Origin: Longimicrobiales bacterium
Lineage (GTDB): Bacteria; Gemmatimonadota; Gemmatimonadetes; Longimicrobiales; Gaopeijiaceae
DNA: 64,000 nucleotides
Reading direction: 5' to 3'
Assembly (NCBI GenBank): GCA_028278645.1
Contig: JANQDZ010000006.1
Coordinates: forward strand, 1-64,000
Shown: one piece after another, positions 30,613 to 45,539 of the stretch
Layout of the letters: each line of letters starts with the position of its first letter
Numbering within the stretch: position 1 is the stretch's first letter
Position numbers and translations under genes: made by a program
The notes under the pieces: model-generated
Told to the model about the DNA's origin: nothing
Database searches by the model: none
The model's input: the letters and a program-made list of their open reading frames with translations, nothing else

Positions 30613-30645
30613 AACAAACCCGGCTTAGCCTGGTAGGGAGGGATG

Positions 30646-30920
30646 AAAGGGTGTTGGGGGATGGGGGTGCGGCCACGCATAGGGAGTCTACGGATGCTAG
30701 ACAAGGAAGAATGACGAATGCGATGCCAAAGCATCGGGGAGGAGTTCTGACGCGGTATAGCGCCGCTACCCCCCTATGCCCTTTGGGTTACGACGGCACG
30801 GGGCCTTCTGCTTCGTTGGGACTTCTTGACGTAGCGCATGGCTATGCCAGCGAAGCCCCGCCTCGCATATGGCCCCGTGGCGTGCGTAACGTGGCTCGCC
30901 CCCATCCCCCAACACCCTTT
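30646..30920. repeat. 275-bp palindromic element with nested stems (long copy)
   Basis: Perfect 22-base inverted repeats end the element (30646-30667 and 30899-30920) and imperfect pairing carries on inwards (GCCACG with CGTGGC). Inside are further exact inverted repeats: GCATAGGG (30677) with CCCTATGC (30772), enclosing GTCTA/TAGAC (30686, 30698) and CGATGC-CAAA-GCATCG (30721-30736); and CACGGGGCC (30797) with GGCCCCGTG (30871), enclosing GCTTCGTTGG (30810) with CCAGCGAAGC (30847, one wobble). No flanking target duplication is obvious. It fills the gap between the MOSC gene and the gene at 30945. A MITE/REP-like mobile palindrome or a structured RNA; a second copy shares its core at 45460. 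Confidence 0.75.
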
Positions 30921-30944
30921 TAAGGACTTTCGGGGAATACGACG

Positions 30945-31367
30945 ATGATACTTCGCTGCAACTTTGAAGAGCTGGGCGCCCTGCGAAGGGGAGCAAACGG
31001 CCTCCTGACGGAGAGGCCGGAGGACAGCTCTGCGGTTGTGGCTCCCCCCGAAGGCCTCGAGGAGGTCGAAGCCCTCTTCCCGCGCCTCCATGGCGATCTT
31101 TCCATGGAAACTCTCGCGGAGCAACGTCGGGTCCTGAAGGGAATCTCCGCCATCGTCTCCCGATTGAGAGAGGAGATGGACGAATCCGTGGTGGCTACCC
31201 ATCCCGCGGACGAGTTGGCAGTGTCGTCGTACTTCCACTATGCCCACGCCCTCACGGTCTTGAACCGAGTGGTGGAGCTGGGGCAGGAGATGGAAGCGCT
31301 TATCGAGCTCGTGACGGGAGCTGCTGTCACCCCGGCTGTGGCCGCTACCTTCCGATTCCCCGACTAG
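30945..31367 (+). CDS. soluble helical protein, unknown function
   Basis: 140 residues: a short first strand (MILRCNFEELGALRRGANGL), then helices (PRLHGDLSMETLAEQRRVLK, GISAIVSRLREEMDESVV), a motif ATHPADELAVSSYFHYAHAL and a final helix LGQEMEALIELVTG. The regular structure and lack of hydrophobic segments indicate a real cytoplasmic protein; I recall similar ones only in Gemmatimonadota-type genomes. It heads the gene row to the sigma/anti-sigma pair. Confidence 0.7.
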   Translation: MILRCNFEELGALRRGANGLLTERPEDSSAVVAPPEGLEEVEALFPRLHGDLSMETLAEQRRVLKGISAIVSRLREEMDESVVATHPADELAVSSYFHYAHALTVLNRVVELGQEMEALIELVTGAAVTPAVAATFRFPD

Positions 31368-31389
31368 GGACCGTCCGAGGAGAGAGGGA

Positions 31390-31710
31390 ATGCCCGGGGC
31401 CACCGATCGCCTGGTCACACTCCGGAAAATGGTGGAGAACAAACCAGACGATCCCCGTCTGAGGTTCGGCCTCGCGGTGGAGCTCCTGAATCGAGGAGAA
31501 ACCCGAGAAGGGGCGGATGCCCTCAGAGCTTACCTGGATCAGGCCGAAGACGAGGGAAATGGTTGGGGGCGATTAGGAGCGGCCCTAGCCGATCTGGGTG
31601 AGAACGAAGGTGCTCGGGAGGCCTACTCCCGAGGGATCGAGATTGCAGAGGGCCGCGGACACAGCGGCCTTGCCGAAGAGCTCCAGGAAGCCTTGGAGGA
31701 CCTCACGTGA
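31390..31710 (+). CDS. small TPR protein upstream of the ECF sigma gene
   Basis: 106 residues with about three helical repeats of tetratricopeptide type (NKPDDPRLRFGLAVELLNRG, AYLDQAEDEGNGWGRLGAAL, GENEGAREAYSRGIEIAEGR). Such proteins bind partners. The stop overlaps the GTG start of the sigma-factor gene by four bases, so it is translated together with the regulator; a role in sigma control is possible but unproven. Confidence 0.8.
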   Translation: MPGATDRLVTLRKMVENKPDDPRLRFGLAVELLNRGETREGADALRAYLDQAEDEGNGWGRLGAALADLGENEGAREAYSRGIEIAEGRGHSGLAEELQEALEDLT

Positions 31711-32306
31711 CGAAGCCCGAAGGCCAAAGCGTCCCGAAGGCCGACTTCCATGAAGAGGCATTGCCCCACATGGATGCCGTTTTCCGGTTCGCTCTACGCC
31801 TATCCGGGTCCCAGGACCAGGCCGAAGACCTGGTTCAGGAGACGTTCCTGAGGGCCTTCCGATCGTGGGACAAGTACACCCCGGGAACCCAATGCAAGAG
31901 TTGGTTATTTACTATCTGCAGGAACGTCTTCCTGCGGCAGAGGGAGCGGGGCCAACGCCACGATGAGATCGTGTCAGAGAACGTGGACCGGAGCTCCGGC
32001 CCGTTTGAAGTCGTAAACCCCGTTTGGGTGAAGGCTGTGAAGGCAGACCCGGAAGGGGAGTTCTTCGATGCCATCGTGGACGAGGCGGTTCTGGAACGCA
32101 TCCAAGAGCTGCCGGAAGACTATCGGACGGCGGTGGTTCTCTCGGACCTGGAGGGTTTTACCTACCAGGAGATCTCCGAGATGACTGAGGTCCCGGTTGG
32201 CACGGTGAAAAGCCGTCTCTTCCGAGGCCGCCGATTGTTACAGAGTGCTTTATACGATTACGCAGTCTCAATGGGGTACATCAAAGGTGCCCCCGATGAG
32301 GCCTGA
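31707..32306 (+). CDS. ECF RNA polymerase sigma factor
   Basis: 199 residues. Region 2 (HMDAVFRFALRLSGSQDQAE, DLVQETFLRAFRSWDKY, CKSWLFTICRNVFLRQRER) and region 4 (VLERIQELPEDYRTAVVLSD, GFTYQEISEMTEVPVGTVKS, RLFRGRRLL) are complete, and the spacer between them is long. The architecture is RpoE/SigR-like. The next gene encodes a zinc anti-sigma factor, the usual partner. GTG start overlaps the TPR gene. Confidence 0.92.
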   Translation: MTKPEGQSVPKADFHEEALPHMDAVFRFALRLSGSQDQAEDLVQETFLRAFRSWDKYTPGTQCKSWLFTICRNVFLRQRERGQRHDEIVSENVDRSSGPFEVVNPVWVKAVKADPEGEFFDAIVDEAVLERIQELPEDYRTAVVLSDLEGFTYQEISEMTEVPVGTVKSRLFRGRRLLQSALYDYAVSMGYIKGAPDEA

Positions 32307-32315
32307 GGATCTCAT

Positions 32316-32654
32316 ATGAGTTTTTTCGACCGCTTACGACGTCTTCTGGGGAGTTCCCAAAAGTCTCGGAGCAGGGCGGGCGGTAACGGGAAACCCTCCA
32401 GCGATGTCGACCCCATCACTTGTATGGAGGCCCTCGAGAGGGTCCAGGGATACCTGGATGGGGAGCTGGACGATGTCTCCCACGAAGAAGTGACCCTGCA
32501 CTTCTCCATGTGCAAGCGGTGTTATCCCCATCTGAAGTTGGAAGAGCGCTTCAAGGAACTTCTCCATCGGTCCACCGAGGAGGAAGCCTGTCCGGAACAC
32601 GTGAAATCCCAGGTTCTGGAGCTCCTGGCCCAAGAAGCTGGTAAGGGCGGCTAG
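32316..32654 (+). CDS. zinc-finger anti-sigma factor (ZAS/RsrA-like)
   Basis: 112 residues, start 10 bases after the sigma gene, preceded by GAGGATCTCAT. The basic N-terminal tail precedes an anti-sigma domain: CMEALERVQGYLDGELDD with Cys36, then HFSMCKRCYPHLKLEER with His62-x3-Cys66-x2-Cys69, the zinc motif of RsrA/ChrR-type factors. In RsrA the cysteines sense disulfide stress and release the sigma factor; the extra Cys36 and Cys at about 92 make redox control plausible. No membrane helix, so a cytoplasmic sensor. Confidence 0.88.
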   Translation: MSFFDRLRRLLGSSQKSRSRAGGNGKPSSDVDPITCMEALERVQGYLDGELDDVSHEEVTLHFSMCKRCYPHLKLEERFKELLHRSTEEEACPEHVKSQVLELLAQEAGKGG

Positions 32655-43357: not shown

Positions 43358-44038
43358 CTAAACTCCCCGGTCGTCAGGGTCCCAGATGTACTTGTGGAGT
43401 TGGAGTTGAAGGCGGACGGGAAGACCATCCGCCAAGACCCACCCAGAAAGCTGCCGGAGGTCAGGACCGGACCAAACGGGAGACAGAAGGATGGCCTTCA
43501 AAGAGCCATCCAAAACCCGCTCGTCCAAGCCTTTGTCACGGATCACCCCGGTGGACCATTCGTAGTCCCGGCTATCGGCCAGGACAAACTTCACCTCGTC
43601 CCGCTCCGTGAGGTGGTCCAGGTTTGACCAGAGGTTCTTTTCCTCCTCTCCTGACCCGGGGCACTTCAGGTCCATGATCTTGTGGGCCCGAGGGTCCAGC
43701 GGGCTCACGTCCACAGCCCCGGAGGTTTCCACGAGAACGGTATAACCTTCGTCCAAGAGGTCGGTGGCCAGTCGAAAGGCGTTGGCGTGGATGAGGGGTT
43801 CACCACCGGTGATCTCCACCAGCCGACATCCGATCTCGTCCACCTCCTCGAGGATGGACGAAAGGAGTCGCTTCTCGCCACCGTGGAACGCGTACTCCGT
43901 GTCACACCAGACACATCGCAGGGGGCATCCGGTGAGACGGACGAAGGTACAGGGGAGGCCGGCCCAGGTGGACTCTCCCTGGATGGAGTGAAAGATCTCC
44001 GTGACGCGCAGGTACTCCTGTGCCTTGGCCGCACCCAT
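43358..44038 (-). CDS. queE: 7-carboxy-7-deazaguanine synthase
   Basis: 226 residues, a radical-SAM enzyme that converts 6-carboxytetrahydropterin to 7-carboxy-7-deazaguanine on the way to queuosine. IFHSIQGES near residue 20, VRLTGCPLRCVWCDTEYAF with the Fe-S motif Cys38-x3-Cys42-x2-Cys45, VEITGGEPLIH for SAM and VETSGAVDV. Length fits. queC, queD and queF are not in the window; queG is 8 kb away. Confidence 0.93.
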   Translation of the reverse strand: MGAAKAQEYLRVTEIFHSIQGESTWAGLPCTFVRLTGCPLRCVWCDTEYAFHGGEKRLLSSILEEVDEIGCRLVEITGGEPLIHANAFRLATDLLDEGYTVLVETSGAVDVSPLDPRAHKIMDLKCPGSGEEEKNLWSNLDHLTERDEVKFVLADSRDYEWSTGVIRDKGLDERVLDGSLKAILLSPVWSGPDLRQLSGWVLADGLPVRLQLQLHKYIWDPDDRGV

Positions 44039-44052
44039 TTCGCTACACCCTT

Positions 44053-45015
44053 CTAACCCGATCTGGCGCCCTTCTTGGGCTGGGGCCAGAGAAAGCCCAA
44101 GGGAGACTCCCGGATCACGCTGCCGGCGAAGAAGAGCATGTTGGCGGGGCGCTCGGCCAGGCGACGCATGAGGTAGGGATACCAGGACTCACCGAACGGA
44201 ACGTAAACCCGAACGTTGTACCCTTTGGATTTGAGGTCCTGTTGCAGGTCTCGGCGGACCCCGTGTAGCATCTGGAACTCGAAGCGCTCCGATCCGATTC
44301 CCTCTTTTTCCACGAACTCCAGGAGTTCTTTTATGATCTCGTCATCGTGTGTGGCTAGGGCCGGATAGTTCCCATCAGACAGTAGGGCTTTGCCCACCTC
44401 CACATAGTTCCGATCTACCGTTTCTTTTTCCTGGAAGGCCACGTCCGGTGGCTCGGCGTAGGCCCCTTTGCACAGGCGGACCCGCACGCCTAGTTCATTC
44501 ATTCGAAGGGCGTCGTCCATGGTGCGGAGTAGGTAGGACTGGAGGACCGTGCCCATGTTTCGGTAGCCCTCCTCCCAGAGTTCCTCGAAGGGGTCCAGGG
44601 TGGCCTGCGTCCAGTCGGAGGATTCCATATCCCATCGGATGAAGATGTCGTGCTCCTTCGCGCGATCCATGATCAGGCGGAGGTTGTCTTTGAAAAACTC
44701 ATTCCCAATCTCCAGGCCGACCTGGGTCGGCTTCACCGAGATGTTGCCGTCCAGGTTCTTCTCGATGATCCCGTCCAGGATCTGCAGATAGGCCTCCACG
44801 GCGTCCTTTGCCGTCCGCTCGTCGTGTTCCGCCTCGCCCAGATAGTTGCCGGTGACCGAAAGCTCGATGGCATTGGCTTCGGCCGCGGCCCGCAGGAAGT
44901 CCGAAACGGCTTCCCCGGGTACAAAACGTCGGCTCATTCGACGGAGAGGGGTTTTGGTTACTACGGCCTTCGCTGAGTTGGATTCGCTCAAGAATATCAA
45001 AGTTTTTCTTAGCAT
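44053..45015 (-). CDS. proline dehydrogenase (FAD, stand-alone PutB-type)
   Basis: 320 residues, oxidises L-proline to pyrroline-5-carboxylate. TIM-barrel signatures: GNISVKPTQVGLEI, RWDMESSDWTQATLDPFEEL, GTVLQSYLLRTMDDAL, VRLCKGAYAEPPDVAFQEK, FEFQMLHGVRRD and the C-terminal RVYVPFGESWYPYLMRRLAE. No aldehyde-dehydrogenase part, so the next step must be done by another enzyme. The ATG overlaps the stop of the upstream small gene (TGATG), so translation is coupled. Ends 15 bases before queE on the same strand, so queE may share the transcript. Confidence 0.92.
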   Translation of the reverse strand: MLRKTLIFLSESNSAKAVVTKTPLRRMSRRFVPGEAVSDFLRAAAEANAIELSVTGNYLGEAEHDERTAKDAVEAYLQILDGIIEKNLDGNISVKPTQVGLEIGNEFFKDNLRLIMDRAKEHDIFIRWDMESSDWTQATLDPFEELWEEGYRNMGTVLQSYLLRTMDDALRMNELGVRVRLCKGAYAEPPDVAFQEKETVDRNYVEVGKALLSDGNYPALATHDDEIIKELLEFVEKEGIGSERFEFQMLHGVRRDLQQDLKSKGYNVRVYVPFGESWYPYLMRRLAERPANMLFFAGSVIRESPLGFLWPQPKKGARSG

Positions 45016-45459: not shown

Positions 45460-45539
45460 GGGAAGAATCCTGATCGGAAAGGGGGGTGCGGCCGTGGCGC
45501 TCGTAACGCGGCTCGCCCCCCTTTCCGATCAGGCTTCCC
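45460..45539. repeat. 80-bp palindromic element (short copy of the 30.6-kb element)
   Basis: Perfect 18-base arms at 45469-45486 and 45516-45533 (left begins CCTGATCGG), extended outwards by GGGAAG (45460) with CTTCCC (45534) after a three-base bulge. The inside (GGGGGTGCGGCC at 45482, CGTAACGCGGCTCGCCCCC at 45502) matches the long copy at 30663 and 30885 exactly on the left arm and with one change on the right. It lies in the 250-base gap between divergent genes at 45389 and 45643, upstream of both. Confidence 0.75.

Follow-up and report, generated by a model that had tools for sequence, protein, structure and literature searches.

The 275-bp element at 30646–30920 (+ strand, the orientation of the family consensus) of the window, the 64,000-nucleotide stretch of a Longimicrobiales contig that was analysed, is probably one copy of a non-autonomous DNA transposon of about 277 nt, with ends of the IS1182/IS5 transposase type, a core that requires folding and ends that are exchanged pairwise. 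By its insertion signature the element is MITE-like; it is atypical through its conserved branched core and its exchangeable ends.

The element, its copies and its empty sites

The evidence for the whole element is its match to R1, a covariance model of the element whose E-values are rough, and an empty site in the same-genus sister species G001. The R1 match, at 30645–30921, scored 286.8 bits, the window copy itself being in the training set of the model. When the flanks were aligned to the single-TA empty site in G001 (locus L308), the left target dinucleotide (30644–30645) was TG, a decayed TA, and the right one (30921–30922) was TA. Judged from these aligned flanks, the limits 30646–30920 are exact.

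The exact inverted ends and inner pairs from which the original prediction started are all present: the 22-bp ends at 30646–30667 and 30899–30920 are perfect inverted copies. One of the inner hairpins, GTCTA/TAGAC, is a local alternative only, as the consensus puts this region in a long arm with purine-rich internal loops. Folding of 30640–30925, one of the checks that had been proposed, gave −168.1 kcal/mol for the + strand (z −10.5, equalled by none of 200 shuffles) and −156.1 kcal/mol for the − strand (z −9.2), both far below the dinucleotide shuffles used as controls. A 90-aa frame spans 30651–30923 in the window copy; homologues show 1-nt gaps, arguing against a conserved frame. A known Rfam RNA was rejected, as no family in Rfam 15 matched at the gathering threshold and none was credible below it. 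An intrinsic terminator was also rejected, on inspection by eye: no T run follows the outer stem, which closes with CCCTTTTAA or CCTTCTAG, and one copy has a grpE-like gene on one side and a dnaJ-like gene on the other.

Genome-wide, about 25 complete or partial copies were found, in either orientation and often at contig ends. R1 found no match in G001. Searching G001 with the joined flanks of occupied sites showed an uninterrupted site for six copies (C52, C76, C83, C22, C84 and C97a) as well as for the window copy. The C84 site reads CACTAGTC when empty and CACTAG...CTAGCT when occupied; for C22 the two states are GTCGTAACG and GTCTTAG...CTAACG, which fits a TA duplication and not a 4-bp one. 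Relative to G001 the TA is thus duplicated at C84 and C22; at the window site G001 has a single TA (GGGAGGGTAGGGG, against GGGAGGGATG[element]TAAGG here). Of the two readings originally offered, a non-autonomous mobile palindrome is borne out by the multiple copies in both orientations, the empty sites, the TA duplication and the ends shared with IS elements of relatives.

The gene in front of the element encodes a MOSC-domain protein, and the row starting at ORF 30945 encodes an unassigned protein, a TPR protein, an ECF-type sigma factor, a zf-HC2 protein and a gyrase/topoisomerase IV A protein. In G001 the orthologue of ORF 30945 follows directly after the uninterrupted site and the downstream operon is intact, so the element is an insertion and not a regulator that the operon needs. 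A cis-regulator of the 30945–32654 row was accordingly rejected, and the suggestion that the element controls the sigma/anti-sigma gene row is not supported; other copies lie beside unrelated genes.

Two reduced forms were found elsewhere in the window. At 45464–45538 (+) there is a 75-bp relative (R1 E = 5e-13) consisting of the outer stem, with ends of a different type (CCTGATCGGAAAGGGGGG), and the base of the core. At 44038–44053 (−) there is a solo end with one mismatch to the own-genome end (GAAGGGTGTAGCGAAA); it adjoins GGCCGCACCC and is apparently a half-deleted copy. Minimal derivatives of about 45–60 bp, with the outer stem alone around a short loop, were also seen in the same genome (L063 at G000:C86:58846-58896, L064 on G000:C50, G000:C12:5219-5277 and G000:C25:37892-37934). 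They may still be able to move and may have been taken for terminators.

Ends and candidate transposases

Terminal inverted repeats were sought at the DUF772 transposase loci of relatives. G031 has an IS end, CTAGCAGGTCGCTGAAAAAG, that is identical over 20 bases to the end of its own copy of the element, and the IS elements of G017 and G081 carry CTAGAAGGCTGTTGAA, the end type of the elements in G017 and G008. In G022 the IS end and the element ends are alike over only about 11 bp. The best score of the relatives' transposases was against the NCBIfam IS1182 model, below its cut-off; those at L097 (from G031, gene at 742–1926) and L082, both with DUF772 and DDE_Tnp_1, pass the cut-off of an IS5 model. 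As its ends equal IS1182/IS5-type ends of relatives, the element is MITE-like. R1 found no core inside the IS elements at these loci. As a separate observation, the targets occupied by IS1182-like elements in Gemmatimonadota are extended palindromes, for example GGGCTAGCCC and CCGCTAGCGG in the flanks of L105, L103, L084 and L083.

The element's own assembly contains no DUF772, no DDE_Tnp_1 and no transposon-sized pair of ends matching its own (AAGGGTGTTGCGAAAA), so a local mobiliser, the transposase acting in this genome, can only be inferred. Likewise, no DDE_Tnp_1 was found in the Omnitrophota MAGs G364 and G365 or the Acidobacteria MAG G362. As these assemblies are drafts, absence of a transposase from them is weak evidence.

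The ends can differ while the core stays the same. Within G022 a single core carries five end types, AAGGCTGTTGAA, CAGCCCGTGGTA, AAGGGTGATCGG, CAGGTCGCTGAA and GGGAGCCTSTGAACAA, and in 13 copies of this genome the left and right ends are complementary over 14–16 of the 16 outer bases. Two of its copies, L163 and L261, have cores that are 95% identical and ends that are unrelated. The end type always differs on both sides together. Copies from outside the Gemmatimonadota have still other ends.

The branched core and what may maintain it

A structure-free alignment of 21 copies from nine genomes gave an RNAalifold consensus of 81 pairs. Compensatory double changes were found in 55 of these; together with the low folding energy and the 25 or so copies in the genome, this is the opposite of the shuffle-like energy and lack of compensated homologues that had been named as grounds for dropping the original prediction. 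In a shuffle and slide test in which the structure was taken from the same alignment, 95.9% of paired cells were filled by pairs (79.7% shuffled, <46% slid) and the covariation score was 0.46 (0.16 shuffled, <0.1 for slid controls). When copies were aligned across phyla with MAFFT, compensatory change was seen in 60 of the 64 pairs predicted.

The range of the fold is wide. R1 was positive in 51 of 121 genomes of the family, covering 28 of 40 genera, and in other families of the class. Searching 84,980 named genomes with an exact core pattern gave matches in MAGs titled Gemmatimonadota, Acidobacteria, Acidimicrobiia and Omnitrophota; those outside the Gemmatimonadota were confirmed as full-length by R1, with several copies per genome except for one site in the Acidimicrobiia MAG. 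In the phylum of the Omnitrophota MAG, 11 of 145 genomes were R1 positive. The phylum range rests on MAG labels, which can be wrong, but contamination is unlikely because the copies are spread over numerous contigs and related genomes. Viral contigs gave no match to the exact pattern. At the level of aligned sequence, covariation shows that genera and at least four phyla share the branched fold. The second reading originally offered, a multi-branched structured RNA, is thus half borne out: the branched fold is supported, and it may be selected either as RNA or as single-stranded or cruciform DNA.

The predicted fold opens with an outer stem, consensus helix 1, whose halves lie at 30646–30676 and 30891–30920 (+); its outer 16 bp or so are the IS-type terminal inverted repeat, and 27 of its 30 pairs show compensatory changes. 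Arm 1 (30677–30779, +, the strand on which it is better folded) is a long hairpin with the conserved purine-rich internal loops AAGGA..GACGA / GGGGAGGAG..GACG. A mini-hairpin, CC-TTT-GG, marks the junction (30780–30786, +) and is followed by the arm 2 hairpin (30787–30890, +). Purine-rich loops of the type CGACGA / GAGGAG are conserved in both arms around a variable tip, on the + strand in arm 1 and on the − strand in arm 2. Some single loop pairs swap G-C for C-G with the purines kept (columns 72/113 and 75/110 of the cross-phylum alignment), and the loops may be runs of tandem G.A mismatches split by single G-C pairs. Compared directly, arm 1 and the inverted arm 2 show modest sequence similarity (mean z 3.1). 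The + strand gives the better fold of arm 1 in 38 of 39 copies, while the − strand gives that of arm 2 in only 24 of 39. Half-broken pairs, counted as GU:AC, were 23:5 in arm 1, 10:2 in the outer stem and 5:18 in arm 2.

Length and branch plan are constant, at about 275–287 nt. Some copies have extra hairpins at fixed loop positions, and the site of the junction mini-hairpin holds 68 bp or about 34 bp of extra sequence in others. Small CGGGCACCGC...GCGGTGGTCCCG hairpins occupy several loop positions in different genomes (L069, L071, L074, L079, L114, L118 and L201) and resemble a mobile hairpin nested inside a mobile hairpin. In L027, L036, L111, L163, L167 and L172 the mini-hairpin is replaced by about 33–37 bp of AT-richer sequence running from CCCA to GGGTT, which may be an older state of the junction.

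In the mechanism that we favour, a DDE transposase of the IS1182/IS5 (DUF772 + DDE_Tnp_1) group would use the outer 16 bp or so as terminal inverted repeats and insert the element at the TA of a YTAR target, duplicating the TA. The core, made up of the outer stem and two long, roughly inverted arms, each with conserved G+A-rich internal loops, would have to fold in cis to be mobilised, as a cruciform, a single-stranded DNA hairpin or a transcript. Only copies that fold would then leave descendants, so that selection for mobility alone could explain how the fold is kept through repeated bursts. Both ends would be exchanged together to match the IS elements available, perhaps with one end serving as the fold-back template for its partner. 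A bolder version, which we put forward only tentatively, is that the elements form a class whose heritable identity is the double-armed folded core, recognised by its shape, which takes local DDE IS ends on both sides, crosses phyla and moves via a cruciform or single-stranded folded intermediate.

The main rival is an ordinary MITE in which the ends alone matter and the covariation is a function-free product of hairpin-templated correction (quasi-palindrome mutagenesis). Palindrome-templated mutation could indeed yield much of the stem covariation without selection, the outer stems are nearly perfect in each copy though their sequence varies between copies, even within one genome, and the joint change of both ends is what templated correction would give. 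Templating should, however, erase the internal loops, and these belong to the positions best conserved between phyla. The constant length and branch plan and the difference between the arms in their better-folding strand also argue against this explanation, which we consider unlikely.

Insertion sites bear on a second rival. Among 127 copies, exact stop codons were found at 69 of 254 element boundaries (27%; 58 of them TAG), compared with 75 of 3371 control TA sites in the same flanks (2.2%), gene calls being heuristic and stops being the ends of open coding-like frames. As TA plus the first element base (G or A, on both strands) re-creates a stop, insertion into a stop codon would be tolerated. 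The boundary stops are divided 45:24 between left and right (p = 0.015), and in strict tandem-gene contexts the + strand is favoured 22:9 (p = 0.03; looser gene calls had given 27:8, and the stricter count is preferred). The 45:24 bias hints at an effect of transcription, which a pure-DNA model does not predict. On the second rival, the fold might act as RNA in host mRNA, for example in 3′-end processing or stability of the upstream gene, to the benefit of host or element. Insertion right after stop codons with its sense bias, the tandem-gene contexts and the excess of G-U over A-C changes on the + strand in arm 1 and the outer stem all favour this. The same genes in the sister species lack a copy before them, presence is patchy among varied neighbours, and the strand bias of arm 2 is opposite, which makes a role in host mRNA rather improbable.

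A REPIN/RAYT-type element, whose hairpins a Y1 (HUH) transposase would recognise and move, is largely refuted and barely credible: the roughly inverted arms with hairpin tips would suit it and Y1_Tnp was found in 4 of 25 genomes scanned, but it was absent from the element's own genome and the 20 others (non-carriers included), was lacking in most carriers and did not correlate with them, and the TA duplication and the DDE-type ends in common with IS1182-like elements speak against it.

Relation to known systems

Bacterial MITEs (e.g. ERIC/RU-1, Correia/NEMIS and Nezha) are short, transposase-free, intergenic and multicopy, with terminal inverted repeats and a TA-type target. The element shares their terminal inverted repeats, a TA duplication with empty sites and an autonomous IS with the same ends (seen in G031 and, at the level of the end type, also in G017 and G081). 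Unlike them, it has a core kept as a branched fold across genera and phyla, and one core can carry several unrelated end types. REPINs are inverted REP pairs moved by RAYT; like them the element is palindromic, with roughly inverted units that can each form a hairpin, but it is far longer, has a DDE-type insertion signature and a cross-phylum spread, and its genome has no RAYT-type transposase. It resembles Rfam structured RNAs in its covarying multi-branched fold and differs from them in being mobile DNA.

The element has the ends and the CTAG/YTAR target of IS1182/IS5-group members in relatives, but no transposase gene. Structure-dependent transposition has a precedent in the IS1182 family: IS1272 has been reported to recognise stem-loops and to depend on them for transposition (PMC5678879). 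IS1272 replaces stem-loops without a target-site duplication, whereas the element sites show the TA duplication. Replacement of the IS1272 type, with loss of the target inverted repeat and no duplication, was rejected because the occupied and empty sites do not show it.

A literature search, with subscription journals mostly outside its coverage, found no earlier description of a conserved branched core with exchangeable ends. The usual view of a MITE is a pair of IS ends enclosing arbitrary filler, without a conserved inside. In this element it is the filler that is conserved and the ends that can be replaced, and this holds over a range in which the primary sequence has largely diverged. R1 provides a calibrated structural model that finds elements missed by sequence search, and the element explains many of the repeats at contig ends in these MAGs. 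On the best reading, mobilisation requires the core to be folded, either as DNA or as RNA, and the core adopts the ends of whichever IS is available. Two questions thereby become accessible to experiment: whether the shape of the DNA can be a requirement for DDE transposition, as has been proposed for IS1272, and how a non-autonomous element outlives the loss of its parent IS.
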